From Terriglobia bacterium (GTDB lineage Bacteria; Acidobacteriota; Terriglobia; Acidiferrales; UBA7541): a stretch of DNA of 64,000 bases. The first letter of the stretch is position 1. Each line of letters begins with the position of its first letter. The notes beneath the pieces were generated by a model. The model was given only the letters and a program-made list of their open reading frames with translations. It was not told the DNA's origin and did not search any database. A program made the translations under genes and the position numbers. Positions 23,286 to 48,947 of this stretch are shown here, piece after piece. The DNA lies in NCBI GenBank assembly GCA_020073375.1, contig JAIQFG010000009.1:1-64000 (forward strand), read 5' to 3'.

Positions 23286-23313
23286 GTAGGGTCACGGCAT
23301 GCCGTGCCCCTAC
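23286..23313. repeat. Palindromic repeat, family F, containing the TPR gene stop codon
   Basis: GTAGGGTCACGGCATGCCGTGCCCCTAC is one palindrome bounded by GTAG and CTAC. The complement of 23310-23312 is the TAG stop of the leftward TPR gene. Confidence 0.85.
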
Positions 23314-24302
23314 TGGGCTTTGCCCAGGGAAGCCAGCGCTTCGCGGGCCAGCGATTGCGCATTCGCTGCGCACGCCGAGTCTCCCTCGCTGGACGCCGCC
23401 GCCGCGCGGAACCTCACGGCCGCCGCGTCGTTGTGCCCGAGCTTCTGCTCGATATCTCCGGCCAGCAACAGGAATATGGGATTGCCCGGGAAGGCCGTCA
23501 GCAGCGGCGCGGCGGATTGCGCGGCGCGCGCGTAGTCGCGGTCGTAGTTGCGCAGGCTCTTGGCCATGTTGAAGCGCGCTTCCATTTGCGTCAGCTCGCC
23601 CTTGCTGGACGCCGTCTCCAGTTGCCGCAACCCCACGGCCTTGTCTCCGCCCGGAATGCCCATGAAAAATCGCAGAATCTTTGCCAGCGTCGAAAGTGTG
23701 TCGACGTAATAGTTGTACAGGCCCAGCCCCAGGTTGGCGTCCGCCATATCGGGATCGAGTTCCAGGCAGCGCAGCAGGTGCTTGCGTGCCTCGACGCCCG
23801 CGCGCGCCACCGGCATTTTTTCGTAGCGCAGGCCCAGCAGGCGCGCCCGCGACGCGTAGCCCAGCCCCGCGTACAGCTCCATTTCCGCCGTGTCCGACTT
23901 GGCGATGCTCGCTTCGGCCAGGCGCGTCACCTTGTCGGCCAGCGCCAGGTCCGCGTCGTCGTCCGCATCCGCGGGGCGCGTGTGGCTCCACGCGTCAATC
24001 GTGTTGTATTTCCGCTCGGACCATTTGCAATAAATCTTCCACCACAAAATGTCGGCTTCGATCAGATACCCAAGAGGATGCTCGGGCCGCGAAGTTTCCA
24101 GCTGGCGCGCCAGCGCCACGGCCCGCTCCGGCTGCCCCGCATACATCAGATGAATGGCTACCGTCGCTTCCGTCGGGATATCCAGTTCCGACGCGGGGGC
24201 TTGCCGCGCGGCGAACATGGCAGCGACAAGGCAGAACACCATTCGGAAGTGTCGGTTTGCGAAGCGCACCGGGCTATTCCTGATACTTCTTCTCGGCGAC
24301 AT
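23310..24302 (-). CDS. Exported TPR-repeat protein
   Basis: The 330-residue protein has a signal peptide (hydrophobic MVFCLVAAMFAA, preceded by a long basic n-region). Several degenerate tetratricopeptide repeats follow over about residues 45-325 (AIHLMYAGQPERAVALARQL; ADANLGLGLYNYYVD). Start 24302 has an AGGAAG site but overlaps the upstream membrane-protein gene by 29 bp; ATG 24242 is the alternative. It is probably periplasmic and scaffolds protein contacts. The stop codon lies in a family F repeat. Confidence 0.8.
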   Translation of the reverse strand: MSPRRSIRNSPVRFANRHFRMVFCLVAAMFAARQAPASELDIPTEATVAIHLMYAGQPERAVALARQLETSRPEHPLGYLIEADILWWKIYCKWSERKYNTIDAWSHTRPADADDDADLALADKVTRLAEASIAKSDTAEMELYAGLGYASRARLLGLRYEKMPVARAGVEARKHLLRCLELDPDMADANLGLGLYNYYVDTLSTLAKILRFFMGIPGGDKAVGLRQLETASSKGELTQMEARFNMAKSLRNYDRDYARAAQSAAPLLTAFPGNPIFLLLAGDIEQKLGHNDAAAVRFRAAAASSEGDSACAANAQSLAREALASLGKAQ

Positions 24303-25194
24303 ACTTCCTGCTCAAAATCCATGCGCCGGTCACGTACATCGCAAAACATTCTAGCGCGTAAACCGGAAAGGCAAGATACCCCGGCGCGGGCATCTGAAAA
24401 ATTTTCCATTGCTGCCCGATGGGAAACGTGTACGTCCACCCCGCGCGTGCCCAGTAATTCCAGAATTCCCACAGCCACCCGCACACCCAGCCCGCCACGA
24501 GAAACGAATACAGCCGGCCGCGGTAGCCGCGCGCAAAATCGCCCTTGAACGAAGGCAGATTCAGGCGTTCGTTGACCGGTTCGAGCAGAAACAGAAATCC
24601 AAGCCAGACCAGGCCAAACAGATAGGCGCTTTTTTCCCTCGGCACGGCCAGGGGCACAATTAGCAGCGCCGCTCCAAGGCCCATGAAAATGTTTCCCGCC
24701 ACCGGGCCAATGCGAATCGGCCGCGAGTCGCCCTCAAACCATCCGAACGACTCGATCAGCCAAGCCGTTACGAAAATCCCGGGTGTAATGGTCGCAAACG
24801 CCCACGCGTACCCGATCCATCGCTCGATGTGCCCCTGCGGCAGTCCCGCATACGCCCAGTTCGCCAGCCGCAGATTGTAGGCCTCAAAAATCAGCCACAA
24901 GGGAATCGAAAGCGCCGCCATTTTCAGCAGCCCGCGGGGCTCGTCACGCAAACGCGACACGCCCGAAATCGCAAACGTGGCCGCATCCGCAATCAAAATG
25001 TAAGCCGTCCACGCCACCGGATTGAAATACGTCGCCGCCGGCTCCACGCCGTGAAACATCAGGAATTCCGCGCTCGCCAGCGCCGCAAGTCCCAGCCACC
25101 CGTGCGCCGGAAACGCTCGCCGCCGCGCGCGAAAAAACTCCACAACCAGGATCGTCACCGTCGCTGCCGTCAGCAGGATTCCCAGTTTCAACAT
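24274..25194 (-). CDS. Polytopic membrane protein of unknown function
   Basis: From ATG 25194 the protein has 306 residues and about eight hydrophobic helices spread along its length, with aromatic-rich helix ends (GWLWEFWNYWARAGWTY). A GTG start at 25353 with a GGGAGAGG site would add 53 polar residues that look non-conserved. No enzymatic motif is seen. It overlaps the downstream TPR gene, suggesting co-translation. Confidence 0.7.
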   Translation of the reverse strand: MLKLGILLTAATVTILVVEFFRARRRAFPAHGWLGLAALASAEFLMFHGVEPAATYFNPVAWTAYILIADAATFAISGVSRLRDEPRGLLKMAALSIPLWLIFEAYNLRLANWAYAGLPQGHIERWIGYAWAFATITPGIFVTAWLIESFGWFEGDSRPIRIGPVAGNIFMGLGAALLIVPLAVPREKSAYLFGLVWLGFLFLLEPVNERLNLPSFKGDFARGYRGRLYSFLVAGWVCGWLWEFWNYWARAGWTYTFPIGQQWKIFQMPAPGYLAFPVYALECFAMYVTGAWILSRKYVAEKKYQE

Positions 25195-25352
25195 GCGTTG
25201 CGCTCGCTCCGCAACGATTTTGCACCATATTGCGCTTCGTGGGCGAGCAAGATCGCTTTCAGGAATATTCTTCAGTTTGCGATGGGGGAAAGCCCAGTAC
25301 AGCTCAGCGGGATTCGCGTGGGCGGAAGGAAGAGAGGCGCTCGGCAGATTCA

Positions 25353-25411
25353 CAAGCGCCTCTCCCTAAAACTCAATCAAGATAACCGATACCTCACTGG
25401 ATCACCTCCTT
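25353..25411 (-). promoter_or_regulatory. Leader with an extended Shine-Dalgarno and possible six-codon leader peptide
   Basis: On the minus strand AAGGAGGTGATCCAG (25411-25397) is complementary to the whole conserved 16S 3' tail. Seven bases after GGAGG a GTG opens a frame of six codons (MRYRLS, then TGA). The membrane-protein frame follows with its own GGGAGAGG site before GTG 25353. Confidence 0.35.
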
Positions 25412-25511
25412 CTCGGCAAGGCTGCCGATGGGAGGATTATAAATCCACACGCCACTTTCGTGCTATAGAAGTATTGGATGCTTCCAGTCAGTTAAGTGGG
25501 GGAACTAGCGC

Positions 25512-26798
25512 GTGGCGGACACGCATCGAGTTGTAATCATCGGCGGCGGTTTCGGCGGGCTGAGCGCCGCCAAGCGGCTCAAGCATGCGCCTGTCGATGT
25601 CACGCTCATCGACCGCTGCAATTACCACTTGTTCCAGCCGCTGCTCTACCAGGTTGCGACCGGCGCTCTCTCTCCCGCAAACATCGCGGCGCCGCTGCGC
25701 AATGTCCTCAAGAACCAGCGGAACACAAAAGTCCTGCTGGCAGAGGCCACGCGCATTGACGCCGAGGGCCGCCGCGTCATCCTGAGCGATGGCGAAATTC
25801 CCTACGACACACTCATCGTTGCCACCGGCTCATCCCACCAGTATTTCGGGCACGACGAGTGGGAAAAATTCGCGCCCGGCCTCAAAACAGTCGAGGACGC
25901 CACCGACATGCGCCGCCGGATTTTGCTGGCGTTTGAGACCGCCGAGCGCGAACCGGACGCAGCGAAATGCGCCGCCTGGATGACGTTCGTCGTGGTCGGT
26001 GGCGGTCCCACGGGCGTGGAATTGGCGGGCACGCTCGGCGAAATCGCGCACGACACGCTCAAGCACGATTTCCGCAAGATTAACCCGTCGCAAGCCAGAA
26101 TTCTTCTCGTCGAGGCGACCGACCGCGTGCTCCCTCCGTTTCCGCCGCCGCTTTCCGAGGCCGCCCGAAAGATGCTCACGCGCCTTGGCGTCACGGTTCG
26201 CACCGGCGCCATGGTCATGAATATCGAGGACGGGGCAGTGACCATCCGCGAAGGCGAGCGCACCGAAACAATTCCCACCCGCACGATTCTCTGGGCGGCC
26301 GGCGTTCTCGCCTCGCCCCTCGGCCGCATGCTGGCCCAGCAAGCAGGCGCCACGCTCGATAAAGTGGGCCGCGTCGTCGTCGAGCCAGACCTCACGGTCC
26401 CCGGTCATTCCGAAATTTTCGTGGTCGGCGACCTTGCCAACTTCAGCCACCAAACGGGAAAGCCGCTCCCCGGAGTAGCGCCGCCCGCCATTCAAGCCGG
26501 GCGCTACGTGGCGGAGACGATCGAGCGGCGCATCAGCGGGAAACAAATCGCGCCGTTTCACTATTTTGATCACGGAAATCTCGCGACGATCGGCCGCGCC
26601 GCGGCCGTCGCGGATCTGGGATGGCTTCGTCTTTGCGGTTTTCCGGCATGGGTGATCTGGCTGTTCATTCACCTGCTCAACATCGTCGAATTCCAGAACC
26701 GGCTGCTCGTGCTCGTGCAATGGGCCTGGCTCTACTTCACCCGCGACCGTTCCGCCCGCTTGATTACGGGAAAAAATCCGCTTCCGCTCGATCTGTAG
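25512..26798 (+). CDS. ndh: Type II NADH dehydrogenase (NDH-2)
   Basis: The 428-residue flavoprotein transfers electrons from NADH to quinone without pumping protons. The FAD-binding GGGFGGLSAA is at residues 11-20, and the NADH-binding VVGGGPTGVELAG is near residues 160-172. A second FAD contact is FVVGDLA near residue 300. The quinone-side C-terminal helix block (WVIWLFIHLLNIVEFQNR) attaches it to the membrane. GTG 25512 is used as start, preceded by a G-rich site. It is monocistronic and flanked by repeats. Confidence 0.95.
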   Translation: MADTHRVVIIGGGFGGLSAAKRLKHAPVDVTLIDRCNYHLFQPLLYQVATGALSPANIAAPLRNVLKNQRNTKVLLAEATRIDAEGRRVILSDGEIPYDTLIVATGSSHQYFGHDEWEKFAPGLKTVEDATDMRRRILLAFETAEREPDAAKCAAWMTFVVVGGGPTGVELAGTLGEIAHDTLKHDFRKINPSQARILLVEATDRVLPPFPPPLSEAARKMLTRLGVTVRTGAMVMNIEDGAVTIREGERTETIPTRTILWAAGVLASPLGRMLAQQAGATLDKVGRVVVEPDLTVPGHSEIFVVGDLANFSHQTGKPLPGVAPPAIQAGRYVAETIERRISGKQIAPFHYFDHGNLATIGRAAAVADLGWLRLCGFPAWVIWLFIHLLNIVEFQNRLLVLVQWAWLYFTRDRSARLITGKNPLPLDL

Positions 26799-26802
26799 GC
26801 CA

Positions 26803-26903
26803 GTAGCACGGCCACTCTTGGCTGTGTGTTTTCTTCGATTGCAGTTAGGTTGTCGCCTTAAGTGCAAATTACAAAACCACATAGCCAGGAGTGGCTGTGC
26901 TAC
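26803..26903. repeat. GTAG...CTAC doublet, family D, after ndh
   Basis: GTAGCACGGCCACTCTTGGC and the inverted arm ending GTGGCTGTGCTAC are about 55 bp apart, starting 4 nt after the ndh stop codon. Each arm is followed on the inside by GTGTGTTTTC or GTGGTTTTG, as in terminators. Confidence 0.85.
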
Positions 26904-26941
26904 CAAAACCGGCCCCGCATAGATTTCTTCAGCAAGCTAGT

Positions 26942-27006
26942 GTAGCGCCCGCCTTCAGGTGGGCACGTATGGGCCGGGCACATGCCCGCCTGAAGGCGGG
27001 CGCTAC
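26942..27006. repeat. GTAG...CTAC doublet, family C
   Basis: GTAGCGCCCGCCTTCAGG and the inverted GCCTGAAGGCGGGCGCTAC. It is 13 nt from the stop of the leftward alpha/beta hydrolase gene. Confidence 0.85.
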
Positions 27007-27018
27007 ATCCAGCAACTT

Positions 27019-28537: not shown

Positions 28538-30079
28538 ATGACGCAAATTCCGGCAAGTGGCGCTCCAACAGATACCGCGGCGCCCGCCAATGATCTGTTG
28601 AACGGTTCCAGTTATCTGGCGAGTCTTTCGGATGCCCGCCAGGTCTATCTCTACGGCGAGCGCGTCAAGGATGTCACCCGTCATCCCGGCTTCCGCAATT
28701 CCTGCCGCTCCATCGCCCGCTTGTATGATGCGCTGCACGATCCCAAGCACAGGGACACCCTCACAGGCATCGACCGCTCCGGCCGCCGCACTCACAAATT
28801 CTTCATGCCCAGCTACACCGCGCAGGAGCTGCTGGGAGCGCGCGACGCCATCGTCGACTGGGCGCGCCTGACCTACGGATTCATGGGCCGCACGCCCGAC
28901 TACAAAGCGGCGCTCATGGCCAGCCTCGATTCGCAGCCTGAGTTCTACGCGCCCTTCGAGGAAAACGCGCGCAAATGGTACGCGCGCTATTCCTCGCAGT
29001 GTCTTTTCCTGAACCACTGCCTCATCAATCCACCGGTCGACCGCAATCGCCCCGCGCACGAAGTCGGCGACGTCTTTGTCCATGTGGTGAAGGAGCAGGA
29101 TGGCGGCATCGTCGTCAGCGGAGCAAAGACACTTGGCACCGGATCGGCCATGACCCACGCCACGTTCGTCGCCCAGAACAGCGCCACCACGCTCGACAAG
29201 GAAAAAGCCAAGGATTTCGCGCTAGTTTTTATTGCCCCTCTCGACACTCCCGGATCCCGGCTGCTCTGCCGGCCCTCGTACGAAGGCAACGCCAAAAGCC
29301 CGTTCGACAATCCTCTTTCCAGCCGCTTCGATGAAAATGACGCGGTGCTGCTGTTCGACAACGCCTTCATCCCCTGGGAAAACGTTCTCGTCTATCGTGA
29401 TCCCGAGCGCGCCAACTCCTTCTTCCGCCACTCGCGTTTCGTGAATCGCTACACGCTGCAATCCGCGTCGCGCCTCGCGGTCAAACTCGACTTCATGTGC
29501 GGACTTTTCGCGCGCGCCATCGAGGCCAACGGCACCGACACGTTCCGCGGCGTGCAGGCCGCCATGGGCGAAATTCTCGCCTGGAGAAATCTGATCTGGG
29601 GCATTACCGCCGCAATGTGCCTCGATCCCGAACCCGCCCCCGGCGGCGCGGTCGTCCCCAAGCAGGAATACGCGTACACGCTGCGCGTGTTCGGCTCTCA
29701 AGCCTGGCCTGCAATCCGCTATCTGTTTGAAAAAAATCTGGCCGTCAGCCTGCTCATGACGCCTTCCAGCTACAAAGATTTGCAGAACGAGGAACTGCAG
29801 CCGCTGATCGAAAAATATTATCGCGGCTCCTCCTCCACCGCCGCCGACCGCATCAAGCTGTTCAAGCTCATCTGGGACGCCATCGGCTCGGAATTCGGCG
29901 CCCGCCACGAACTCTACGAAATCAATTATTCCGGCAACCACGATCAAATCCGCCTCGACGTCCTCACCGGCGCGCGCTCCAGCGGAATCCTCGACCGCTG
30001 CATCGCCCTCACCGAGCAATGCATGTCCGAATACGACGTGAACGGCTGGAAAGATTCCACCTGGGTCTGGGACAAGTAG
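28538..30079 (+). CDS. 4-hydroxyphenylacetate 3-hydroxylase (HpaB) family flavin monooxygenase
   Basis: The 513-residue protein belongs to the two-component, FADH2-using HpaB family that ortho-hydroxylates phenols. It has the acyl-CoA-dehydrogenase-like fold: an N-terminal helical domain with GRRTHKFFMPSYTAQEL, a middle beta domain (GGIVVSGAKTLGTGSAMTH) and a C-terminal helical domain. The last ends in EFGARHELYEINYSGNHDQI, a family hallmark. The ATG at 28538 follows CAGGAGA. The enzyme needs a separate flavin reductase; one is encoded at 36632. The stop TAG lies in the GTAG of a family F repeat. The true substrate is not determinable. Confidence 0.9.
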   Translation: MTQIPASGAPTDTAAPANDLLNGSSYLASLSDARQVYLYGERVKDVTRHPGFRNSCRSIARLYDALHDPKHRDTLTGIDRSGRRTHKFFMPSYTAQELLGARDAIVDWARLTYGFMGRTPDYKAALMASLDSQPEFYAPFEENARKWYARYSSQCLFLNHCLINPPVDRNRPAHEVGDVFVHVVKEQDGGIVVSGAKTLGTGSAMTHATFVAQNSATTLDKEKAKDFALVFIAPLDTPGSRLLCRPSYEGNAKSPFDNPLSSRFDENDAVLLFDNAFIPWENVLVYRDPERANSFFRHSRFVNRYTLQSASRLAVKLDFMCGLFARAIEANGTDTFRGVQAAMGEILAWRNLIWGITAAMCLDPEPAPGGAVVPKQEYAYTLRVFGSQAWPAIRYLFEKNLAVSLLMTPSSYKDLQNEELQPLIEKYYRGSSSTAADRIKLFKLIWDAIGSEFGARHELYEINYSGNHDQIRLDVLTGARSSGILDRCIALTEQCMSEYDVNGWKDSTWVWDK

Positions 30080-30099
30080 GGGCACGGCATGCCGTGCCC
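30076..30099. repeat. Palindromic repeat, family F, containing the HpaB stop codon
   Basis: GTAGGGGCACGGCATGCC and its other half GGCATGCCGTGCCC. Bases 30077-30079 (TAG) are the HpaB stop. Confidence 0.8.
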
Positions 30100-31948: not shown

Positions 31949-33358
31949 ATGAACGCATTTCGGGCCGGGAATCGTCAATTCCCGCACGCACTGACGCTTC
32001 AAATCCCATTGGTCGCCGCGCTCGCTTGTTTTTTATCAGCTCCCGGTCTTGCGCAATCCGATCCCGCCGAGCCCCCGCAAGCCCATCCAGCGCCGAAACT
32101 TCTGGCTCGCCCGGGAAGACCCGTCGCTCGCCAGGAAGTCGATGAAAAATCCATGCGCGCCCTGATCGAGCAGCTCGTCGCCTGCGGCACGCGCCATTCG
32201 CTTTCTTCGTGGGGCGATCCCGCCCGCGGCGCGGGATGCGCGCGCGACCATATCCTCGCGCGCCTCCAGGAAATTAATAAGCAATCCGGCGAAAAACTGA
32301 AAATCGTCAACGACAAGTTCGAGACCACCGGCCCCAGAACCGGCAACAAACCGGTCCCCATGGAGAATATCTACGCGGTTCTCGCCGGCTCCGATCCCGC
32401 GCTCGCAAAAACCGTCTTCATCGTTTCCGGCCATTTCGACAGCCGCAATTCCGACCCCCTGGATCCGACGATGGACGCGCCCGGCGCCGATGACGACGCT
32501 TCGGGCGTAGCCGTCAGCATGGAATGCGCGCGCCTGCTGAGCCGCGCGGGCGCCGCCGGCCACGGCCCTTATCGCGCCACGCTTTTGTTCGCCGCCATTT
32601 CCGGCGAAGAACAAGGCCTGCTCGGCAGTTCGCGCATGCTCGAATGGGTCCAGCAGCAGGGATATACCATCGGCGGGATGCTCGATAACGATATCGTCGG
32701 CTCGGACCCTGCCGCCGGCGCGCCGCATCGCGTGCGATTGTTTTCCGGCAGCGGAGAAATGGACGATAGCGACTCGCCCTCGCGGGAACTGGCCCGCGCC
32801 ATCGAGGAGATCGCGGGCGAAACGAACATCCGCATGATCTTCAACGTCGACCGCCTGGGCCGCGGCGGCGATCACTACGTTTTCTACAAGGCAGGCCAGC
32901 CCGGCGTGCGCTTCACCGAGCCGCTCGAGGATTACCGCCACCAGCATCAAACCCTGCGCACCGAAAACGGCGTCGAGTACGGCGACCAGATGAAATATCT
33001 GAATTTCACGTTCATGGGCAACGTCGCGCGCGACAACGCTGAGGCCTTGCGCCAGTTGTCCCTGGCTCCCGCACCACCCTCCCAGCTGAAGCTCAGCGGA
33101 GGCGTCACCCCGGATGCAAAGCTCGATTGGACCGCGCCGGAGGACCCTGAGCGAGCCGGTTTTGAAATTCTTTGGCGCGAAACCACCAGTCCGCGATGGC
33201 GGGTCTATGATTTTCCCGCGGCCACAGCGGAATTCGTATTGAAAAGCGTCTCCACCGACAACCATTTCTTTGCCGTCCGCTCAGTCGGAAAAAATGGCGC
33301 CCGCTCCGTCGCCGTCCCCACCGACACAGGACGCAGATTGCCCCCCGGCCGCCAGTAG
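31949..33358 (+). CDS. Secreted M28-family zinc aminopeptidase-like protein
   Basis: From ATG 31949 (after TAGGAGAG) the protein has 469 residues. A signal peptide ends near GLAQSD (about residue 32). The M28 catalytic domain shows the zinc ligands and general base in order: H in GHFDSR, D in GADDDASG, EE in ISGEEQGLLGS and D in DNDIVGSDP. The C-terminal ~85 residues resemble a fibronectin III-like beta domain (GFEILWRET). It probably degrades peptides outside the cytoplasm. The TAG stop lies in the GTAG of a family B repeat. Confidence 0.92.
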   Translation: MNAFRAGNRQFPHALTLQIPLVAALACFLSAPGLAQSDPAEPPQAHPAPKLLARPGRPVARQEVDEKSMRALIEQLVACGTRHSLSSWGDPARGAGCARDHILARLQEINKQSGEKLKIVNDKFETTGPRTGNKPVPMENIYAVLAGSDPALAKTVFIVSGHFDSRNSDPLDPTMDAPGADDDASGVAVSMECARLLSRAGAAGHGPYRATLLFAAISGEEQGLLGSSRMLEWVQQQGYTIGGMLDNDIVGSDPAAGAPHRVRLFSGSGEMDDSDSPSRELARAIEEIAGETNIRMIFNVDRLGRGGDHYVFYKAGQPGVRFTEPLEDYRHQHQTLRTENGVEYGDQMKYLNFTFMGNVARDNAEALRQLSLAPAPPSQLKLSGGVTPDAKLDWTAPEDPERAGFEILWRETTSPRWRVYDFPAATAEFVLKSVSTDNHFFAVRSVGKNGARSVAVPTDTGRRLPPGRQ

Positions 33359-33453
33359 GGCAGGCTTCAGCCTGTCGATTTTTGAATTACGTTTGAGAAA
33401 ATACCTCGTTGAATTGTAGCGAAGAAAACCCCACAGGCTGAAGCCTGTCCTAC
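33355..33453. repeat. GTAG...CTAC doublet, family B, containing two stop codons
   Basis: GTAGGGCAGGCTTCAGCCTG and the inverted arm ending AGGCTGAAGCCTGTCCTAC are about 55 bp apart. The left GTAG holds the M28 stop (33356-33358) and the right CTAC holds the ggt stop (33450-33452). Both hairpins are followed inward by T runs (CGATTTTTG; GGGGTTTTC). Confidence 0.92.
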
Positions 33454-35159
33454 TTGATCCACTCCTTAATCACCAACTCCGGCACCGCCGCCCCATCCTT
33501 GCGCGGATCGCTCGCCCCATAATTTACGCCCGCCGCATAATCGCGCATCACCGCCTGGCCTCCGCCAAACGCATCCGAAAATCCGTTGTGCATCGTCAGC
33601 ACGTGCCCCTTGGCCGTCAGTTCCGCCCGCACGTTCCCAGGCACGCGATTCTCCAGCTCCACGTCGCATCCGCCGAACGTGCGCTTGGTAAACCGCGCCG
33701 TTTCCATCGCCGCCTGAATGTTCTGATTGAAATCCACGATGTGCGAAACGAATTGCGCGTGCGCCTGCGCCTGGTTCCATCCCCCCATGATGCCGAACGC
33801 GATCCGCGTCTGGTCCTTCTCCATGAACGCGGGAATGATCGTGTGCAGCGGCCGCTTGTGACCGGCGATCGCATTCGGGGAATCCTTGTCCATATTGAAC
33901 AGCGCTCCGCGATCGTGGAGCGGGAACCCCGTTCCGGCGGCGACCAGTCCCGATCCGAACTCGTCGTAATTCGATTCGATCAGCGAAACCATGTTCCCGT
34001 CGCGATCCACCACACTCAGGTAAGTCGTATCTCCCGCGTCCGGCACCGGGGTCCCCGGCGCGACTTCGCATTTCGCGTGGTCCGGATCGATCAGTTTCGC
34101 GCGCTCGGCGGCGTACGCCTTCGACAGCATTCCGCTCACCGGCATCTTGTTCATTTTCGGATCGGCGATGTAGCGCAGCACGTCCGCATACGCCAGCTTC
34201 TTCGCTTCGATCTGGATATGGAGCGCCTGCGTGGAATTTAATCCCATCTTATGCAGATCGAACTGCTCCATCAGGTTCAGCATTTCCAGCGCGCCGATCC
34301 CCTGCACGTTCGGCGGCAATTCCAGAACCGTCCATCCGCGATACGTTGTGGAAATAGGCTCGACCCATTCGCTGGAATAATCGGCAAAATCCTTCGCGGT
34401 GAACGAACCCCCATGCTGCGCCGAAAGTTCCAGCAGGCTTTTGGCAATCGGCCCCTTGTAAAAGGCGTCGCGCCCACCCGCCGCGATCTGCCGCAGCGAC
34501 CATGCCAGGTCGGGATTATGCATCACCTCGCCCACGCGCGGCGGCCGGTCATTGATCAGAAATGTTTTCGCCGCAGCTTCCGAATTGCGCAGCAGGTCAG
34601 CGTCTTTCGCGAAGTGCAGCGCGATCCACTCCGTCACCGGATAGCCGTCGTCTGCAATTTGAATCGCCGGCGCAAGCACTTCGTTCAATTTTTTCTTTCC
34701 AAACCGGTCCAGAAGTTTCTGCCACCCGTCCACCGCGCCCGGCACAGTGGCCGATTCGATCCCGCGCACCGGCACCTCCTGCAACCCCTTCTGCCGCAGC
34801 CGGTCGATCGACTGCGCCGCCGGAGCCCACCCGCTGGCGTTGAGCCCGTAATATTTTCCGGTCTTGGCGTCGTACACGATGGCGAACAGATCCCCGCCGA
34901 TGCCGTTCCACATCGGTGCCACCACGGTCATCACTGCGTGCGCCGCTATGGCCGCGTCCACCGCGTTTCCCCCGCGCTCCAGAACCGCCGCACCCGCCTT
35001 CGACGCCAGCGGCGATTCGGTCGCGACGATTCCGCCCTGCGAGATCACCATCGACCGCCCCTGCCCGCGATCCTGCGCAAACACTTTGTCCTGGTTCATT
35101 TCCATGGTCAGAATTCCCGCAAACAGGAGTAACGCCAGCCGGATTGAATGTTTTCGCAT
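33450..35159 (-). CDS. ggt: Gamma-glutamyltransferase
   Basis: The 569-residue protein is made as a precursor that self-cleaves. It transfers or hydrolyses gamma-glutamyl groups, mainly from glutathione, in the periplasm. A signal peptide is at residues 1-28. The N-terminal large-subunit region carries ESPLASKAGAAVLERGGNAVDAA. The autocleavage nucleophile threonine lies in DAGDTTYLSVVD (T378/T379). The small subunit has the substrate-binding GGWNQAQAHAQ-type helix and the HTIIPAF loop. It is convergent with the M28 peptidase gene. Together they could supply amino acids from peptides. Confidence 0.96.
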   Translation of the reverse strand: MRKHSIRLALLLFAGILTMEMNQDKVFAQDRGQGRSMVISQGGIVATESPLASKAGAAVLERGGNAVDAAIAAHAVMTVVAPMWNGIGGDLFAIVYDAKTGKYYGLNASGWAPAAQSIDRLRQKGLQEVPVRGIESATVPGAVDGWQKLLDRFGKKKLNEVLAPAIQIADDGYPVTEWIALHFAKDADLLRNSEAAAKTFLINDRPPRVGEVMHNPDLAWSLRQIAAGGRDAFYKGPIAKSLLELSAQHGGSFTAKDFADYSSEWVEPISTTYRGWTVLELPPNVQGIGALEMLNLMEQFDLHKMGLNSTQALHIQIEAKKLAYADVLRYIADPKMNKMPVSGMLSKAYAAERAKLIDPDHAKCEVAPGTPVPDAGDTTYLSVVDRDGNMVSLIESNYDEFGSGLVAAGTGFPLHDRGALFNMDKDSPNAIAGHKRPLHTIIPAFMEKDQTRIAFGIMGGWNQAQAHAQFVSHIVDFNQNIQAAMETARFTKRTFGGCDVELENRVPGNVRAELTAKGHVLTMHNGFSDAFGGGQAVMRDYAAGVNYGASDPRKDGAAVPELVIKEWIK

Positions 35160-35267: not shown

Positions 35268-35388
35268 GTAGCACAGCCATTCTTTATCCCGAGCCCCCGC
35301 GAGGGGTTGGCTGTGTGGTTTTGCGGACCACATCCGCGTCACTAATCTATCTGCGAATTTCAAAATCCGCACAGCCAGAAGTGGCTAC
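35268..35388. repeat. GTAG...CTAC doublet, family D, with enlarged left loop
   Basis: The left arm begins GTAGCACAGCCATTCTT, has about 23 extra bases, and then resumes GTTGGCTGTG. The right arm is GCACAGCCAGAAGTGGCTAC. The complement of 35385-35387 is the TAG stop of the YVTN gene. Confidence 0.8.
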
Positions 35389-36398
35389 GCCCCCGGCACC
35401 ACCATCGTCAGCAGCCGCTTCGGACCTTCCCCGGTCTTGACCGTGGCCACCACTTCCCGCGATTTCGCCTCGATGATCGTCGTGGTGTTCCCCGCGCAGT
35501 TGCTCACGGCCACATATTTGCCGTCGGGCGAAAATCCGATCCAGTTCGGGCACTCGCCGGTGGCGATTTCCTTGGAAAGTTTTTTCGAGGCCACGTCGTA
35601 CACATACACGCCGTTGTCGGACAGGCTGGTAACCCACAATTCCTTTTCGTCGCCCGACAGCGCGATCCCGTGCGTCTCTGTGTGCGGCTCGAGGATGCAA
35701 TCCGCGGGAGGCGCGGCCGGCAGGTCCACGCGCGCGATTTCCTTCTTGGTCGAAATATTCACGATCTCAAAGCCGTGGTAATCCGACAGCGCGACGTACA
35801 AGGTTTTTTCGTCCCGCGTCACCGCATAAGGCCGCGGAATTCCGCCCACCGGAATCTTGTCCGTATATTCCATCTTCTTCAGGTCGATGCGGTTGATCTG
35901 ATGATCGTCCATGGACGAAACGTACAGGACGTCGTTGCGCCCCGTGTTGTACGCGTTGTGCGGCGCGTTGACCGGCAGCACCTTTACGATTTTTCCCTGC
36001 GGGATGTCGATGATGTCCACGCCGCCCACGTCGCGAATCGGCACCGCCACGTAATGGCCGTCCGGCGTCGACGCGCACTGATTGGGCCGCCCGGTCAGCG
36101 CAATCGTCGCGGTCACCTGGTTGGTGGCCGTGTCCACCACCTTCAGCATTTTCTCCGATTCGATCGTGGCAAAAAGTTTCTGCCCGTCGGCCTGCGCGCA
36201 CACGCCGTGCACGCGCTTGCCCACCGTGATCTCCGCGTCGGCCTTCATCGTGGCCAGATCGATCCGCGTAATGGTCGTCCCCAGGCTGTTCGTGACGAAC
36301 ACTTTCGCGCTCCCCATTTTTGCGGGCGCCACCTTGCTCAGTCCGAATGCGCAAAATGCCAGGGCCGCCATCACCGCCCAACGTGCGCGTGGGTTCAT
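35385..36398 (-). CDS. Exported YVTN-type beta-propeller protein
   Basis: From ATG 36398 (GGAGACA site) the protein has 337 residues, with a signal peptide ending near KVAPAK. About six to seven blades follow, of the type VFVTNSLGTTITRIDLATM, KLFATIESEKMLKVVDTATN and YVAVSNCAGNTTTIIEAKS. YVTN/lactonase-like propellers bind proteins or small ligands; a lactonase active site cannot be confirmed. The stop is inside a family D repeat arm. Confidence 0.88.
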   Translation of the reverse strand: MNPRARWAVMAALAFCAFGLSKVAPAKMGSAKVFVTNSLGTTITRIDLATMKADAEITVGKRVHGVCAQADGQKLFATIESEKMLKVVDTATNQVTATIALTGRPNQCASTPDGHYVAVPIRDVGGVDIIDIPQGKIVKVLPVNAPHNAYNTGRNDVLYVSSMDDHQINRIDLKKMEYTDKIPVGGIPRPYAVTRDEKTLYVALSDYHGFEIVNISTKKEIARVDLPAAPPADCILEPHTETHGIALSGDEKELWVTSLSDNGVYVYDVASKKLSKEIATGECPNWIGFSPDGKYVAVSNCAGNTTTIIEAKSREVVATVKTGEGPKRLLTMVVPGA

Positions 36399-37302: not shown

Positions 37303-37890
37303 GTGGAAATTCACGAGTGGAACAAGCGTTACCGCCTGCGAGAACACGAGACGTCGGATTTTGAATCCCCGCCCACGCCTCTCCTGGTGGAAACCATCGC
37401 ACCGCTCGCGCCCGGCAGCGCCCTCGACCTCGCCTGTGGCGCCGGCCGCAACGCGCTGTGGCTTGCCGAGCACGGCTGGCAGGTCACCGCTGTCGACGGC
37501 TCATCCGTGGCCATCGAAACGCTGCGCGACCGCGCCGCCGAGCGCAATTTGCCCATCGCGGCAGTCGTCGCCGACCTCGAAAAACACGAATTTGAAATCG
37601 AGCGCGACCGCTGGGACTTGATCGCCATCTGCTACTACCTGCAACCAAATTTATTTGAGCCCGCCAAGCGCGGCGTGAAGCCCGGCGGCATCCTCATCGC
37701 CATCGTTCACATCACCGAGCCCGGCCAGGCGCAAACCCGCCACAGCCTGCGCCCCGGAGAACTCGAAGCATTTTTCAAAGGCTGGGAAATCCTGCATCGC
37801 CACGAAGGCATCCCCACCGACAAGCCCCACCGCCGCCCCGTAGCCGAACTCGTAGCCCGCCGCCCGCCACTGTCCATATGGCCCACGTAG
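37303..37890 (+). CDS. SAM-dependent methyltransferase (TehB-like)
   Basis: From GTG 37303 the product has 195 residues (a longer frame goes to 37189). The class I methyltransferase signature is clear: motif I LDLACGAGRNALWLAEHG, an acidic strand end VTAVDGSS, and motif IV WDLIAICYYLQ. The pattern resembles TehB/UbiE-like enzymes that methylate small molecules or metalloids. The substrate is unknown. The stop TAG lies in the GTAG of a family F repeat. Confidence 0.85.
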   Translation: MEIHEWNKRYRLREHETSDFESPPTPLLVETIAPLAPGSALDLACGAGRNALWLAEHGWQVTAVDGSSVAIETLRDRAAERNLPIAAVVADLEKHEFEIERDRWDLIAICYYLQPNLFEPAKRGVKPGGILIAIVHITEPGQAQTRHSLRPGELEAFFKGWEILHRHEGIPTDKPHRRPVAELVARRPPLSIWPT

Positions 37891-37913
37891 GGGCACGGCA
37901 TTGCCCTGCCCCG
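37887..37913. repeat. Palindromic repeat, family F (degenerate), containing the methyltransferase stop
   Basis: GTAGGGGCACGGCATTGCCC resembles the perfect palindrome at 23286-23313. Bases 37888-37890 are the TAG stop. Confidence 0.75.
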
Positions 37914-42655: not shown

Positions 42656-42893
42656 GATTATTATTCCTCCCTCTCGAAATGCCCGTGCATCAGCATAGAT
42701 GGGGCAACGCCCCCTATGGGATGTTCCGCTGGCATGGACACTCTTTAAATACCTTCCGGGATGCCGAAAGGTTCCACAATCGGAGTAAAATACGGCCCGC
42801 CATGAACACACTCTCCCAATTCGGACGCATCCCGACGGAAGCGCGCTCATATCAAAAGTGTTGCTCGACGGCCGCCCGAAAGGACAACTCGCG

Positions 42894-43361
42894 ATGATTT
42901 CGATTCGGGACGCCAACGCGAACGACGCGGTTGCCATCGCCCGCCTGGTCAACACGGCCTTTCTGGTTGAGCAGTTCTTCATCGAACGCGACCGCACCAA
43001 TCCCGAAGTGGTCCGCGGCATGATGAAAAAAGGAAAATTTCTCCTCGCTGAGGACGAACACAGCCTGGTCGGCAGCATCTACGTGGAACTGCGCGGCGAG
43101 CGCGGGTATTTCGGCATGTTGTCCATCGAGCCCTCCCGGCAGGGCATGGGCGTGGGGCACCGCCTGGTCGACGCCGCCGAAAACTATTTTCTGGATGCGG
43201 GCTGCATGTGGAGCGACCTGATTATCGTCAACGTTCGCACGGAACTTCTCGCGCTTTACGGCCGCTGGGGATACAAGGAAACCGGCACCGCTCCCTACGA
43301 CGATCCTCACCCCACGAAGATCCCCGTCCATTTCATCTTGATGTCCAAGCCGCTCTCTTAA
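42894..43361 (+). CDS. GNAT family N-acetyltransferase
   Basis: The 155-residue protein starts at ATG 42894. The acetyl-CoA-binding motif A is clear (YFGMLSIEPSRQGMGVGHRLVDAAE, about residues 76-100). It is preceded by a beta-strand block (SLVGSIYVELRGERG) and followed by a WGYKETGTAPYDD end. The substrate is not predictable from sequence. Its TAA stop is directly followed by GTAGGACAGG of a family B repeat arm. Confidence 0.9.
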   Translation: MISIRDANANDAVAIARLVNTAFLVEQFFIERDRTNPEVVRGMMKKGKFLLAEDEHSLVGSIYVELRGERGYFGMLSIEPSRQGMGVGHRLVDAAENYFLDAGCMWSDLIIVNVRTELLALYGRWGYKETGTAPYDDPHPTKIPVHFILMSKPLS

Positions 43362-43386
43362 GTAGGACAGGCTTCAGCCTGTCGGT
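43362..43386 (+). repeat. Single arm of repeat family B
   Basis: GTAGGACAGGCTTCAGCCTG followed by TCGGTTTTC, starting immediately after the GNAT stop codon. Confidence 0.8.
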
Positions 43387-43420: not shown

Positions 43421-43484
43421 GGCGCCGGCATCTTTGTTTCTTGGCGCGCGTGTGAAAAGCCCGCCGGCGAGACGCCGGCGCTAC
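43421..43484. repeat. Family A repeat, left arm degenerate, right arm intact
   Basis: The right arm GCCGGCGAGACGCCGGCG ends in CTAC, which abuts the stop of the dioxygenase gene. The left part (GGCGCCGGCATC) is decayed. Confidence 0.7.
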
Positions 43485-44362
43485 TAAACCCGGGCGGCAA
43501 CGCTCTTCGCCGGGCTAAGCACGAAATCGTAATTCACCACCACAAACGGCGTTTCCAACACTTCCCCCGTTGGCGCCTTCCCCGCCGGCATTTTCTTGAA
43601 TTCCGCGATGAGCTTGTCTTTCACCCCGAACACGACGTCGCAATCGATATATTTCCCGTCCTTCTTGAACAAATGCGTGATCAGCGTTTCGTATCCGGGC
43701 GCTTGAATCAGGAAATGAATGTGCGCCGGCCGGAAATGCGAAATATCGGTCTTCCTCAATAAGTCGCCGACGGTGCCGTCCATGGGAATCGAATATCCGG
43801 GCGGGGCGATGGTCCGGATTGCGTATTTTCCATCCTCGCCGGTTTCAAAAATGGCGCGCAGCAGCGGCTCTTCCGAACCAAGCTGCGATTCGTACATGCC
43901 TTCCGCGTCGGCTTGCCAGATATCCAGCTTGGCGCCCGCGATCGGCTTTCCCTCAAGGTCGCGAACAGTCCCCACCAGAAAACAGGTCTCTCCGCCGAGC
44001 CCTTCCGCCATGTTCGCGCCCATCGGCATTTCCGGCGAGCCCTCGATATGAAACGGGCCCATCACCGTCGACGGGGTCGCGCCGCCCGGAAACCGGTGAT
44101 TGATCGCGTCAACCAGCATGCTCACGCCCAGCACATCGGAAAGCAGAATGAATTCGTGGCGCTTTTCCGAGCACAGCTTGCCCGTCTTGGCCAGCCAGTC
44201 CACGGCCTCCAGCCATTCCTTTTCCGTCAGGTCCACTTCGCGCACAAATCCGTGCACATGCTTGACCAGCGACTGCATGATTTCGCGCAAACGCGGCGAG
44301 TGGCATGATTCCCATTGTTTCAGGGCCAGTTCGGTCAGATTCTGTTCGGTCGCATTTGGCAT
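43484..44362 (-). CDS. Intradiol ring-cleavage dioxygenase
   Basis: The 292-residue protein resembles catechol or hydroxyquinol 1,2-dioxygenases, which cut catechols between the hydroxyl groups using Fe(III). It starts at ATG 44362 after CAGGAGA. The N-terminal helical dimerisation domain (residues 1-100) is followed by GPFHIEGSPEMPMG, GTVRDLEGKPIAGAKLDIWQADAEGMY (iron-site tyrosine), a second tyrosine in PPGYSIPMDG, and RPAHIHFLIQAPGY with two iron histidines. All four iron ligands are apparent. Together with the HpaB-like hydroxylase it suggests aromatic degradation. Confidence 0.92.
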   Translation of the reverse strand: MPNATEQNLTELALKQWESCHSPRLREIMQSLVKHVHGFVREVDLTEKEWLEAVDWLAKTGKLCSEKRHEFILLSDVLGVSMLVDAINHRFPGGATPSTVMGPFHIEGSPEMPMGANMAEGLGGETCFLVGTVRDLEGKPIAGAKLDIWQADAEGMYESQLGSEEPLLRAIFETGEDGKYAIRTIAPPGYSIPMDGTVGDLLRKTDISHFRPAHIHFLIQAPGYETLITHLFKKDGKYIDCDVVFGVKDKLIAEFKKMPAGKAPTGEVLETPFVVVNYDFVLSPAKSVAARV

Positions 44363-44562: not shown

Positions 44563-44650
44563 TCAAGTCCCTTCGCAATCCGCCTAACCGCCGGCGCTCC
44601 AATATTGATTGTCAACTGCATCCCGGAAACCACAGGAACCACGGAGCTTC

Positions 44651-45637
44651 ATGGCCATTCTCGTAACCGGCGGCGCCGGATACATCGGCAGCGTTACCGT
44701 CGAGCGGTTGCGCACCAAAGGCGAGCAAGTCGTCGTCCTGGACGATCTCGAGCGCGGCCATCGCGCCGCGCTCGAGGCCGATGTTCCCCTGTATCGCGGG
44801 AAAATCGGCGACCGCGAACTGGTCGCGCGCATCTGCCGCGAACACAACCTCGAATCCTGCATCCACTTCGCCGCATTGATCGAAGTCGGCGAATCGGTCA
44901 AGGATCCCGCGAAATATTTTGAAAATAATGTCGGCCACGGCATCGCATTTATCACTGAACTCGTCCAGCAAGGCGTGCGCCGCATCGTGTTTTCTTCCAC
45001 AGCCGCCGTCTACGGCGATCCCGAGGAAATCCCGATCACCGAACCAAGCCGCAAATGGCCGAAAAATCCCTACGGCTGGTCCAAGCTTTTCATGGAACGC
45101 CTGCTCGATTCCTACGGCACTGCGTATGGAATGAAATTCGCCGCCCTGCGCTACTTCAATGCTGCCGGGGCCACCGAAAAATGCGGCGAGGACCACCGCC
45201 CCGAGTCCCACCTGATTCCCAATGTGCTTTCCGCGGCTCTGGGCCTGCAGCAGGCCATTCGCGCTTTCGGCAACAATTATCCCACCCCGGACGGCACGCC
45301 CATTCGCGATTACATTCACGTCGCCGACCTGGCCGACGCGCACATCCTCGCCCTCGATCATCTTCGCCGCGGCGGCGTCTCCGACTTCTTGAACTTGGGA
45401 ACGGGCCGCGGCTATTCCGTCCTCGAAGTCATCCAGTGCGCGCGCCAAATCACCGGAAGGGAAATTCCCGTCGTGCTGGAACCGCCGCGCCCCGGCGATC
45501 CTGCCCGATTGATCGCCGACCCGTCCAGGGCCAAAGCCATGCTGGGCTGGGAGCCGCGCCAGTCCGATTTGCCCTCCATCATTCGCTCCGCGTGGCAGTG
45601 GCGGCTTCGACATCAGCAGGGTTATGCGGCGGAATAG
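44651..45637 (+). CDS. galE: UDP-glucose 4-epimerase
   Basis: The 328-residue short-chain (extended SDR) enzyme interconverts UDP-glucose and UDP-galactose, supplying sugars for the polysaccharide genes downstream. It has the NAD motif GGAGYIGS (residues 7-14), the catalytic YGWSK (Y141, K145) and the RYFNAAGA loop. ATG 44651 is used. It is followed 87 bp later by UDP-glucose dehydrogenase on the same strand. GalE relatives may act on UDP-GlcNAc; this cannot be told apart here. Confidence 0.94.
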
Positions 45638-45724
45638 TCTTTTGTTGCGGATTAGAATGGGCGAGAATTAGAACATCGCTCTTGAGATGGAAAAACGCGC
45701 AGGATACGAACAAGGGGAGCCAGC

Positions 45725-47101
45725 GTGAAATTAGCGGTGATCGGATGCGGGTACGTGGGTCTGGTGTCGGGCAGCTGTCTGGCGGAGGCGGGGCATGAGG
45801 TGATTGCCACCGATAACGACGCCTCGAAAATCGCCACGTTGCAGGCGGGGAAAATACCAATCTACGAACCGAGTCTCGACAAGGTGCTCGAGACCGTTGT
45901 GCGCGAAGGGCGCTTGCGATTCACAGCCAATGGCGGCGAAGCCGTCCGCGAGTCCGATGTCGTATTCATCTGCGTGGGCACGCCTCCCACGGATACAGGC
46001 GATGCGGATTTGTCCGCCATTGACAGCGTGGCGCGCATGATCGCCCGGGAATCGCGCACGCCCAAGCTAGTCATCGAAAAAAGCACCGTGCCGGCGCAGA
46101 CGGGCGACCAGTTGAAGCGCGCGCTCCAGGTTTATGCGACCAACGCCGGAGCGAAATTCCGCGTCGCCTCCAACCCTGAATTCTTGCGCGAAGGCACGGC
46201 CGTCGAGGATTTTTTCCATCCGGACCGCATCGTCGTCGGCGTCGAGGATAAGGAGAGCGAGCAGGAATTGCGCGAAATCTACGCGCCCATACTGCAGGGG
46301 CGGTTCCGCTGCCCGGTGCACCTGCCGAATTGTCCGCCCGCGCCTACTCCTGATTTCGTGGTCACCACGATTGCCAGTGCCGAATTGATCAAGCACGCCT
46401 CCAACTCCTTCCTCGGCCTGAAAATTTCCTACGCCAACGTCCTGGCCGATTTGTGCGAGCATCTCGGCGGAAACGTCGAGGAAGTTACACGCGCGGTGGG
46501 GCTCGATCCCCGAATTGGCGGGCAATTTTTGAAGGCCGGCCTCGGCTTCGGCGGATTCTGTTTGCCGAAGGATATCCAAGCGTTCATTTCGCTGGCCGAG
46601 CGCGCCGGCATCGACTTCGGTTTGCTCAAGGAAGCCGAACGCGTGAATCGCCAGCGCGTCGATCTGTTGCTGGACAAAGTGAAAAAGGCCCTGTGGGTCA
46701 TGAAGGGAAAACAGATTGGCGTCCTCGGCATCGCTTTCAAGCCCAACACCGACGACATTCGACTGGCCCCGGCCATCGAAGTAATCCGCCGCCTGCTCGC
46801 CGAAGGAGCGGTAGTCCGGGCCACCGATCCCGAAGCCATGGAGCGCGCGCGCGGCGTTTTTCCCGACCTCGCCTACAGCGCGGATCCTTATGAAGTCGCC
46901 CGCGGCGCGGACGCCTTGCTGGTCCTCACCGAATGGGAGCAGTTCCGCCGCCTGGACTGGAAACGCGTGCGCAGCGAAATGGCCCGTCCCCTGGTCGTGG
47001 ACGGTCGGAACATGCTCCGCCCAGCGGAAATGAAAGCTCTGGGCTTCGAGTATATGAGTTTCGGCAGGCCCGAAAAAGCCGTCGCAACACCCGCATCATG
47101 A
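45725..47101 (+). CDS. udg: UDP-glucose 6-dehydrogenase
   Basis: The 458-residue enzyme oxidises UDP-glucose to UDP-glucuronic acid in two NAD steps. The GTG at 45725 follows AAGGGGAG. The NAD-binding site is GCGYVGLVSGSCLAEAGH, and the catalytic Cys is C279 in GFGGFCLPKD. The sugar-binding ends are the EFLREGTAVEDF region and the C-terminal GIAFKPNTDDIR and DGRNM. The acidic sugar product fits the exopolysaccharide region that follows. Confidence 0.96.
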   Translation: MKLAVIGCGYVGLVSGSCLAEAGHEVIATDNDASKIATLQAGKIPIYEPSLDKVLETVVREGRLRFTANGGEAVRESDVVFICVGTPPTDTGDADLSAIDSVARMIARESRTPKLVIEKSTVPAQTGDQLKRALQVYATNAGAKFRVASNPEFLREGTAVEDFFHPDRIVVGVEDKESEQELREIYAPILQGRFRCPVHLPNCPPAPTPDFVVTTIASAELIKHASNSFLGLKISYANVLADLCEHLGGNVEEVTRAVGLDPRIGGQFLKAGLGFGGFCLPKDIQAFISLAERAGIDFGLLKEAERVNRQRVDLLLDKVKKALWVMKGKQIGVLGIAFKPNTDDIRLAPAIEVIRRLLAEGAVVRATDPEAMERARGVFPDLAYSADPYEVARGADALLVLTEWEQFRRLDWKRVRSEMARPLVVDGRNMLRPAEMKALGFEYMSFGRPEKAVATPAS

Positions 47102-47264
47102 CTTTTGCGAACCGGAACTCCGGGAATTTCAAGGATTTGCCATTTTGAAACTGCTCCTCCGGAAAAAATGCCGACCTTCGGAAACGCAATAGAACAACAA
47201 TGCAATTGTTTTCCCTATTTGCCGACGACCTGCCTCGCGGGAACAACACACCCCTCTGAGCCCT

Positions 47265-47276
47265 GAGGATATCCTC
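47265..47276. promoter_or_regulatory. Perfect 12-bp palindrome, possible operator
   Basis: GAGGATATCCTC lies 71 bp upstream of the candidate sigma-54 promoter, a position where an enhancer-binding activator could sit. No family is assigned. Confidence 0.3.
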
Positions 47277-47346
47277 GTAAGCTGCTTATTTTGAGTATGA
47301 TGGATAATCGTTAACTTCTCTCCTATGCGGGAAGCTGGAACCAGTC

Positions 47347-47361
47347 TGGCAGGCCGATTGC
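47347..47361 (+). promoter_or_regulatory. Candidate sigma-54 promoter (-24 TGGCA, -12 TTGC)
   Basis: TGGCAGGCCGATTGC matches TGGCACG-N4-TTGC at all but one position, with the invariant GG and GC spaced correctly. It points toward the sugar-transferase gene, giving a leader of about 225 nt to the start at 47598. A degenerate copy at 47435 keeps the -24 half only. Confidence 0.55.
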
Positions 47362-47597
47362 CTCTAAGTCTGCGTGCTTTGATGCCCGGCCTTGATTTGT
47401 GACCGGCGGAACTTTTTTGCGCTGAATCCGTGCCTGGCAGGCAATTCGTTCTAAGCATTTGTAAATACAAGACTTATTAATAGATGTGCGGAGCGGTGGC
47501 ACACCAGGGACGAAGCCTTGCTTTGCGCTGTTCTCGTGATTCCCTGAATGTCATGGAGGGAAACCTCCCTGGCGAGCTGTCCGCGGCAGGAGCCCAA

Positions 47598-48785
47598 ATG
47601 GCAAATAGCTATTCGAGAATCGGATCTCCGGAAAACCAGCAATCGGCCAAGCAGACGGGTCCGAAGTTTTCCGAACCACGCGATTTTGGCATTCTACCCG
47701 CTCCCGAGGAAACCGCGCTCACTGAAAGCGTTTTTCATTCCTTGCTCACGCATGAGCGCCGGCGCGCCGAACGCTCCCGCAAACCTTTCGTCTTGATGCT
47801 GCTGGACGCCAATCTGGAAGACGGCACCCCCGCGGAAATTTTGAAAAATGCAGTCGAGGTGGTACTGGCTTCCAAACGGGAGACCGACCTGGTCGGTTGG
47901 TACAAGCAGGAACTTATCCTGGGCGTGATTTTCACGGAAGTCAGCGTCGAGGGAGATGTTCCGGTCACCGAAACTTTACGGACCAAAATCGAGGCTGCGC
48001 TGATCAAGCATCTGGGCCGCGAGCCGGCCTCCAAGATCGCCATTTCCCTGCATTTGTTTCCGGAAAATTGGGACAAGGATCACACCGGATGGGTTGCGGA
48101 TTCCAAGCTGTACCCCGACCTGAAGCGCAAAAGTTCGCGCAAGCGCCTGCCCCTGGTGATCAAGCGCGTGATGGACATTGCGGGCAGCGGAGCCCTGCTG
48201 CTGGTGCTTTCGCCCTTGCTCGCGGCCATTGCCGCCATCATCAAGCTCACGTCAACCGGCCCTGTCATTTATGAACAGGATCGCCTGGGCCAGTTCGGCG
48301 CGCGCTTCAAGTGCCTGAAATTTCGAACGATGTACTCCAATAACGACCCGAAAATTCACCAGGAATACGTCCAGCAATTCATTGCCGGCAAGGACGGGCT
48401 GGACAAGTCTGCCTCCAGCGAAAAGCCTGTTTACAAGCTGACTAACGACCCGCGAATTACCTCCATCGGGCGTTTGCTGCGCAAGGCCAGCCTGGACGAA
48501 CTCCCGCAATTCTGGAACGTGCTGCGCGGCGAAATGTCGCTGGTCGGCCCGCGCCCTCCGGTTCCCTACGAATTCGAAGTCTATGACGTCTGGCACCGCC
48601 GCCGCGTTCTTGAAGTGAAGCCCGGAGTCACCGGCCTTTGGCAGGTGAGCGGCCGAAACCGCACGCTGTTCGATGAAATGGTCCGTCTGGATCTGCGTTA
48701 CTGCCAGAGCTGGTCGCTATGGCTGGATGTAAAGATTTTGTTTGCCACCCCCCGCGCCGTTTTCCACGGGGATGGCGCCTGCTGA
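47598..48785 (+). CDS. Polyprenyl-phosphate sugar-1-phosphate transferase with degenerate GGDEF domain
   Basis: I start at ATG 47598 (395 residues) after CAGGAG. The first ~150 residues read like a GGDEF fold: an [18 protein letters not shown] strand, and [19 protein letters not shown] where the active GGDEF loop is replaced by KQELI. It therefore should not make c-di-GMP. One membrane helix (about residues 195-220) and the bacterial sugar-transferase domain follow, with [36 protein letters not shown] and [11 protein letters not shown]. This single-helix layout resembles the PglC-type monotopic enzymes that start glycan assembly on undecaprenyl phosphate. Confidence 0.9.
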
Positions 48786-48870
48786 CGCAGGAAATCCGCA
48801 GTTTTCAATTTTTCCGCGAAGTTTGAACCCTTTGTGTGTTGTTCCAGCTTAATTTTCAAGGATGGTTTGA

Positions 48871-48947
48871 GTAGGACAGGCTTCAAGCCTGCCGCTCTTG
48901 ATTTTCCTTGCCGACCAACAAACCCGACAGGCTGAAGCCTGTCCTAC
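48871..48947. repeat. GTAG...CTAC doublet, family B, containing the gmhA stop
   Basis: GTAGGACAGGCTTCAAGCCTG and the inverted arm GGCTGAAGCCTGTCCTAC are about 35 bp apart. The complement of 48944-48946 is the gmhA TAG stop. Confidence 0.88.

Follow-up and report, generated by a model that had tools for sequence, protein, structure and literature searches.

Di Nocera, De Gregorio and Rocco reported in 2013 that repeats tagged with GTAG often supply the TAG stop codons of genes (PMC3733652). The passage on stop codons in their account of the GTAG super-family gives no count, test or orthologue comparison. Here we provide all three for the repetitive extragenic palindromes (REPs) of a soil-dwelling Terriglobia bacterium of the Acidobacteriota, beginning from a stretch of 64,000 nucleotides (the window: contig JAIQFG010000009.1 of assembly GCA_020073375.1, positions 1 to 64,000) in which several genes end in the GTAG of a REP. 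In the available text of PMC3733652, GTAG repeats are listed for the Proteobacteria, Cyanobacteria, Chloroflexi and the Planctomycetes–Verrucomicrobia–Chlamydiae (PVC) group, and the Acidobacteria appear there with tyrosine transposases that have other terminal repeats.

How does the locus compare with other known systems? It resembles those of the REP-associated tyrosine transposases (RAYT or TnpAREP), the REPtrons and the bacterial interspersed mosaic elements (BIMEs), as set out in parts of PMC2817692 and of a 2021 study of TnpAREP recognition (PMC8266576), in that a RAYT-like gene at locus L155 of this genome is flanked by its cognate REPs. A REP placed directly at the stop of a rayt gene, and the copying of the rayt 3' end between REPs, were described by Nunvar et al. 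in 2010 (passages of PMC2817692), and both are seen at L155. The difference from these systems, as those papers describe them in the parts cited, is that here the REP foot, its terminal GTAG, forms the stop of many ordinary host genes, mostly at the ancestral codon. There is a likeness, too, to the REPs of Escherichia coli, which lie close behind stops and for which translation effects have been proposed (RepRanger, PMC12306157). Passages of that paper count classes of distance (up to 15 nt, and 16 nt or more), whereas we count the exact coincidence of TAG and stop. A search mainly of the open-access literature found no paper that counts the coincidence of REPs and stops against local density or compares orthologue stops. 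Nor did that literature, on insertion sites of REPINs (paired REP elements) and stop codons or on REPs, RAYTs and Acidobacteria, yield anything closer than PMC3733652. The phenomenon is already known; what is new are the counts, the result on same-codon stops and the phylum of the host.

Why look at the ends of genes? The mode of REP insertion in vivo is unsettled. A gene end is a fixed reference, in codon and in frame, that lasts in diverged relatives, and REPs at stop codons make insertion and loss readable where intergenic sites no longer align. The same-codon result and the exchange of REP families on one stop limit the mechanisms that can be at work, and the approach is applicable to any genome with RAYTs. 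For annotation, the consequence is that a mobile element gives some genes their stop and a few their C-terminus.

REP feet at stop codons

Do REP feet coincide with stops more often than their placement behind genes predicts? A sequence-only reading of the window had claimed that seven genes take their TAG stop from the GTAG at a repeat end, and that three more (ndh, GNAT and intradiol dioxygenase) end within five bases of a GTAG. All seven coordinates hold, each with its GTAG, and the three near cases are correct (table 1). For a count we surveyed 1.44 Mb of the 5.29-Mb host genome and, from the nearest relative (G005), 0.64 Mb. Our own simple hexamer caller, used in place of annotation, yielded 771 genes from a first host sample, 527 from G005 and 366 from a second host sample, 1,664 in all. 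The first host sample was partly picked from contigs with matches to REP family D, a choice that biases REP density but should leave offsets unbiased. The second was taken by contig number, mostly without reference to REPs, with further parts of contigs C28 and C34 added for their transposase matches. Offset gives the position of the T of the REP foot relative to where the stop codon starts, read along the strand of the gene.

The REP foot is the end of the gene in 56 of the 1,664 called genes. In the first host sample 30 feet stand at offset 0 and 73 at offsets 3–20, a mean of 4.06 per position (ratio 7.4, Poisson p = 1.3e-16). The corresponding figures are 19 and 32 for G005 (mean 1.78, ratio 10.7, p = 8.5e-14) and 7 and 10 for the second host sample (mean 0.56, ratio 12.6, p = 2.0e-6). 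Offsets 1 and 2 are impossible, because no stop would form. Out-of-frame REP feet in the last 40 nt of genes number 0, 0 and 1 in the three gene sets. The sequence-only reading had named, as what would tell against it, a coincidence of GTAG and stop no commoner than 3' placement predicts. Since the excess at offset 0 is 7- to 13-fold and recurs in all three sets, the coincidence is commoner than that.

The 56 feet comprise 51 GTAG, three GTAA and two TTAG; the detector tolerates one mismatch in the foot, and the two TTAG matches are doubtful. The stricter detector used for the offset counts misses the methyltransferase and YVTN cases of the window, and both lie outside the 56. In G005, long-loop variants of family D stand at three stops (L069:18096, L127:9318 and, on the minus strand, L129 at 4184), two of them with GTAA in place of GTAG; the foot may vary there while still being a stop.

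What are these elements? In the first 785 kb of the host genome, those 14-mers starting with GTAG that recur most often belong to several hairpin families. Families D, E, A, C, G, B, K and D3 have GTAG (some GTGG) feet and a strongly conserved stem. Across all 5.29 Mb, one family-D pattern is found 271 times without mismatch; its reversed control pattern has no match. The feet sit mostly 3' of stops and crowd within 20 nt of them. Most copies are inverted doublets, GTAG-hairpin...hairpin-CTAC, of which the first host sample holds 114, with a median length of 76 nt and a 5th to 95th percentile range of 65–108 nt. The elements are ordinary GTAG REPs, mostly inverted doublets of the REPIN kind.

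The genome has five Y1_Tnp matches. The one at L152 scores 101.8 against the NCBIfam model for the RAYT family (cut-off 80), and none of the REPs searched for lies near it. The gene at L155 (1159–1995) scores 73.9, just under the cut-off, and is surrounded by six C-type REPs. This gene itself terminates in the TAG of a C-type REP; a second copy of the REP, preceded by roughly the last 60 nt of the gene, lies some 170 nt further downstream. No RAYT partner for family D was identified. The GTAG hairpin families and the RAYT-type genes bear out the earlier identification of the repeats as REPs linked to RAYTs, and it is presumably transposases of this type that move them.

Orthologous stops and the source of the GTAG

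If a REP now provides the stop, where does the gene end in a relative without one? The host genome and G005 share 307 reciprocal best-hit pairs, with a median identity of 92.6%. In 20 pairs the foot is at the stop in one species alone, and in 14 of these the partner stops at the same codon, the outcome that the sequence-only reading had left to such a comparison; one of the 14, L046, turned out to have a variant REP in G005 too. The other six differ by −1 (twice), −4, −7, −26 and +2 codons. Where both species have a foot at the stop, length is unchanged in all 11 pairs; where neither has any REP, the position of the stop is kept in 191 of 201. Thus changes of length are commoner than in the controls, yet a stop at the old codon is the rule. 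At L022 the genes of four relatives, none with a REP at the stop, terminate at the identical codon (TAA, TAG, TGA and TAG), and at L047 there is a truncation of about 40 residues. No clean empty site for an insertion was caught among the 114 host and 35 G005 doublets; both flanks were found for 48 and 18 of them, and few of these could be aligned to the junction.

A stop may also hold different families in different species. At L004 the host has family D and the relative G002 family E. At L006 and L144 the host again has family D, and G005 has families C and K, respectively. At L262 the REP of the relative G001 is of a different family and stands two codons off.

Is the GTAG brought in by the element, or was it there before? 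For offsets 3–14, in pairs with a REP on one side and a partner without a recognised REP, the partner has GTAG at the site in one case of 17, and that one resembles a REP remnant. Since 16 of the 17 have no GTAG, the tetranucleotide arrives with the element at these offsets. An insertion like that of IS200/IS605 elements, at a target that stays upstream, would have the GTAG in the empty site beforehand, which is not what these offsets show.

At the stop itself we examined same-codon orthologues with no REP nearby. Three of 11 in G005 have a GTAG stop (three more have GTAA), as have six of 22 in four more distant relatives; the background in control genes is 168/1157 for the G005 comparison and 18/133 for the four relatives. 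Control genes of the host that have a GTAG stop of their own are matched in G005 by GTAG in 15 of 30 and by GTAA in eight of 30. GTAG stops are over-represented beside REPs 5–12 nt downstream, occurring in 15 of 36 such host genes versus 78 of 597 REP-free ones (p = 4.4e-5); positions 26796–26806 of the window are an example. In three genes the foot stands at offset 0 in one species, and in the other a GTAG stop is followed by a REP 9–10 nt away: ggt, L005/L113 and L150/L115, the last with a one-codon difference in length. These pairs would fit a short deletion between the two GTAGs, of stop and foot, or GTAG stops that served as acceptors more than once, and prove neither. A subset of 'clean' junctions, those sharing the first two bases of the last codon, looked enriched for GTAG and GTAA in G005; it was chosen post hoc and is not used as a test.

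Formation of the junction

How, then, might a foot come to lie on a stop? In the account that we tentatively prefer, GTAG-tagged REPs, mostly doublets of about 65–108 nt, would be spread by RAYT-type tyrosine transposases; they settle at the 3' ends of genes, where out-of-frame landings are almost absent. Beyond simple tolerance at gene ends, junctions that lie exactly on the former stop codon, the length of the protein being unchanged, are genuinely in excess. Most of this excess would come from the joining of a foot to a stop that already read GTAG or GTAA, either at insertion or through a later deletion between the GTA(G) of the stop and a nearby GTA(G) in the foot. Genes with a GTAG stop and a REP 5–12 nt downstream would be the substrate for such a deletion. 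The offset statistics of the three gene sets, the same-codon stops, the near-absence of out-of-frame feet, the exchange of families, the 9–10-nt pairs and the RAYT genes all support this account; the transposition by RAYTs and the way in which the exact junction forms we infer. Taken whole, it seems to us plausible, if somewhat short of probable.

Several observations weigh against it. The REP-less same-codon orthologues are just weakly enriched for GTAG, and loss of a REP from the relative would also leave GTAG behind. Several of them have TAA or TGA and another last base, and for these a pre-existing GTAG fails unless there was a later change. In five one-sided cases (TPR, L004, L042, L115/L150 and L037) the last codon is wholly different, so that the junctions there are no simple join. 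In the two smaller gene sets the association of GTAG stops with nearby REPs is no more than suggestive (5/14, p = 0.07; 2/4, p = 0.07), with the same trend. Finally, some 'empty' G005 sites (L010 and L032) resemble REP remnants by eye, which points to a possible loss in G005 in place of a gain in the host.

Might the transposase complex itself prefer stop codons, or GTAG or TAG sites, for example by way of a GTAG guide? Such a preference would account for the 7- to 13-fold excess at offset 0 and for different families on one stop. At L264, moreover, G005 and a further relative, G003, have GTAG at the stop with no recognised REP, and the related IS200/IS605 elements are described in passages of PMC8266576 as picking their targets through guide sequences. 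The surroundings of the feet argue the other way. A weak motif, GG.TT.A, precedes GTAG, also far from genes; its mean likelihood ratio is 3.47 at offset 4, 2.67 at offset 3 and 0.99 at offset 0. It accounts for the peaks at offsets 3 and 4, gives offset 0 no advantage, and is rejected as the cause of the peak there. A second GTAG lies 6–12 nt upstream in three of 287 REPs far from stops, no more than expected, which also disposes of the idea that the element has a second GTAG built in. The solitary, remnant-like GTAG among the 17 partners of downstream REPs tells against targeting as well. Because no clean empty site was caught and GTAG normally comes with the element, targeting of stops is at most something we infer, and we consider it unlikely, if worth keeping in view. 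A further and likewise unlikely proposal is that GTAG and GTAA stops are acceptors where REP hairpins come and go, and one family replaces another, with the protein unchanged; one sequence would then be both the host's stop and the guide tetranucleotide of an element that the transposase recognises.

Are REPs instead kept longer at stops? Selection might retain those that abut a stop, for instance because the hairpin shields the mRNA or delays the ribosome at termination. REPs do crowd generally within 20 nt of stops, and an effect on ribosomes within 15 nt of the stop in E. coli is cited in passages of PMC12306157. Yet the proportion of REPs shared with G005 (shared cases being counted from both sides) hardly depends on position. 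With 25 nt of slack it is 26/42 at offset 0, 16/29 at 5–12, 10/17 at 13–20 and 15/24 at 21–50. Longer survival is therefore not needed for the excess, and we reject it as the main cause. If the slack is cut to 4 nt, sharing is highest at offset 0 (22/42 vs 5/24 at 21–50), an exact position being easier to keep beside a gene; these figures are compatible with a modest retention effect. The function of a hairpin alone would not need offset 0 rather than 4. The sequence-only reading had offered a preference of REPs to insert at stops or to be kept there. The excess exactly at the stop and the 14 same-codon pairs are in keeping with insertion at stops; the sharing of 26/42 vs 15/24 gives no sign of longer survival, and we judge selective retention improbable as an explanation.

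Could the coincidence be an artefact of the reading frame? If REPs were inserted at random into gene ends, an in-frame GTAG would become the first stop and the protein would be shortened. Truncated one-sided pairs exist (those shortened by 1, 1, 4, 7 and 26 codons, and L047), and the empty offsets 1 and 2 are accounted for. But this explanation predicts positions 0, −1, −2 and so on in equal number, unless each lost residue is strongly selected against, and 14 of 20 pairs keep the codon. It also predicts out-of-frame landings twice as often, and nearly none is seen. Pure truncation is largely refuted by the orthologues, and we regard it as doubtful at best. Chance, in that GTAG includes TAG and REPs do crowd gene ends, is rejected as scarcely credible, the counts of 30, 19 and 7 at offset 0 lying far above what local density predicts (4.06, 1.78 and 0.56).

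Repeats and stops in the window

The seven stops of the window come from six elements, the M28 peptidase and ggt genes lying on opposite ends of one 99-base doublet (table 1). Six of the seven are provided by intact REPs, of family B (TPR, HpaB and methyltransferase) or family D (M28, ggt and gmhA); the YVTN element is eroded. Pfam backs the gene names, with the TPR protein matched only below the curated cut-offs.

Table 1. REP elements of the window at, or within five bases of, the ends of genes. Positions are those of the window; (+) and (−) give the strand of the gene.
Element	Positions	Strand	Foot and stop	Gene
Family B palindrome	23286..23313	−	GTAG 23313–23310 holds TAG stop 23312–23310	TPR, 23310–24242 (−)
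Family C REP	26803..26826	+	4-nt spacer after TAG stop	NDH-2-like, ndh, 25512–26798 (+)
Family B REP	30076..30099	+	TAG 30077–30079 is the stop	HpaB, 28538–30079 (+)
Family D doublet GTAG...CTAC, left end	33355..33453	.	stop 33356–33358	M28 peptidase, 32153–33358 (+), convergent with ggt
Same doublet, right end	33355..33453	.	stop 33452–33450	gamma-glutamyltranspeptidase, ggt, 33450–35159 (−)
Eroded C-like hairpin element	35367..35388	−	GTAG 35388–35385 holds stop 35387–35385	YVTN beta-propeller, 35385–36371 (−)
Imperfect family B REP	37887..37912	+	TAG 37888–37890 is the stop	methyltransferase, 37303–37890 (+)
Family D REP	43362..43383	+	GTAG directly 3' of TAA stop	GNAT, 42858–43361 (+)
Family E REP	43463..43484	−	first G of GTAG is last base of TAG stop	intradiol dioxygenase, 43484–44362 (−)
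Family D doublet	48871..48947	.	right foot 48947–48944 holds stop 48946–48944	GmhA-like SIS-domain, gmhA, 48944–49543 (−)

How do these genes end in the relatives? The G005 orthologue of the TPR gene has no REP and stops at the identical codon, TAG. For HpaB the position of the stop codon is the same in G005 (TAA) and in G001 and G003 (TAG), with no recognised REP in any of the three. The YVTN orthologue of G005 stops at the same codon (TAA) and has a REP 13 nt downstream. The methyltransferases of G005, G001 and G003 have a different end, a few residues earlier, and the stop of gmhA lies 3–4 codons upstream of the stops of its orthologues. At ndh, both the stop and the 4-nt spacer are conserved in G005, and GTAG is absent at that place.

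A single doublet that provides the stops of two convergent genes, as between M28 and ggt, occurs at three further places (L008:5063–5178, L010:14496–14568 and L138:10254–10329). A further GTAG-bearing repeat, GGGCTCCAAGTAGAGCCCGCACCCG, has no hairpin of the usual kind behind its GTAG and is found at position 22831 of the window, at L045:3925–4026 and at L038:14055–14090; in places its copies stand head to tail, about 33–35 nt apart.

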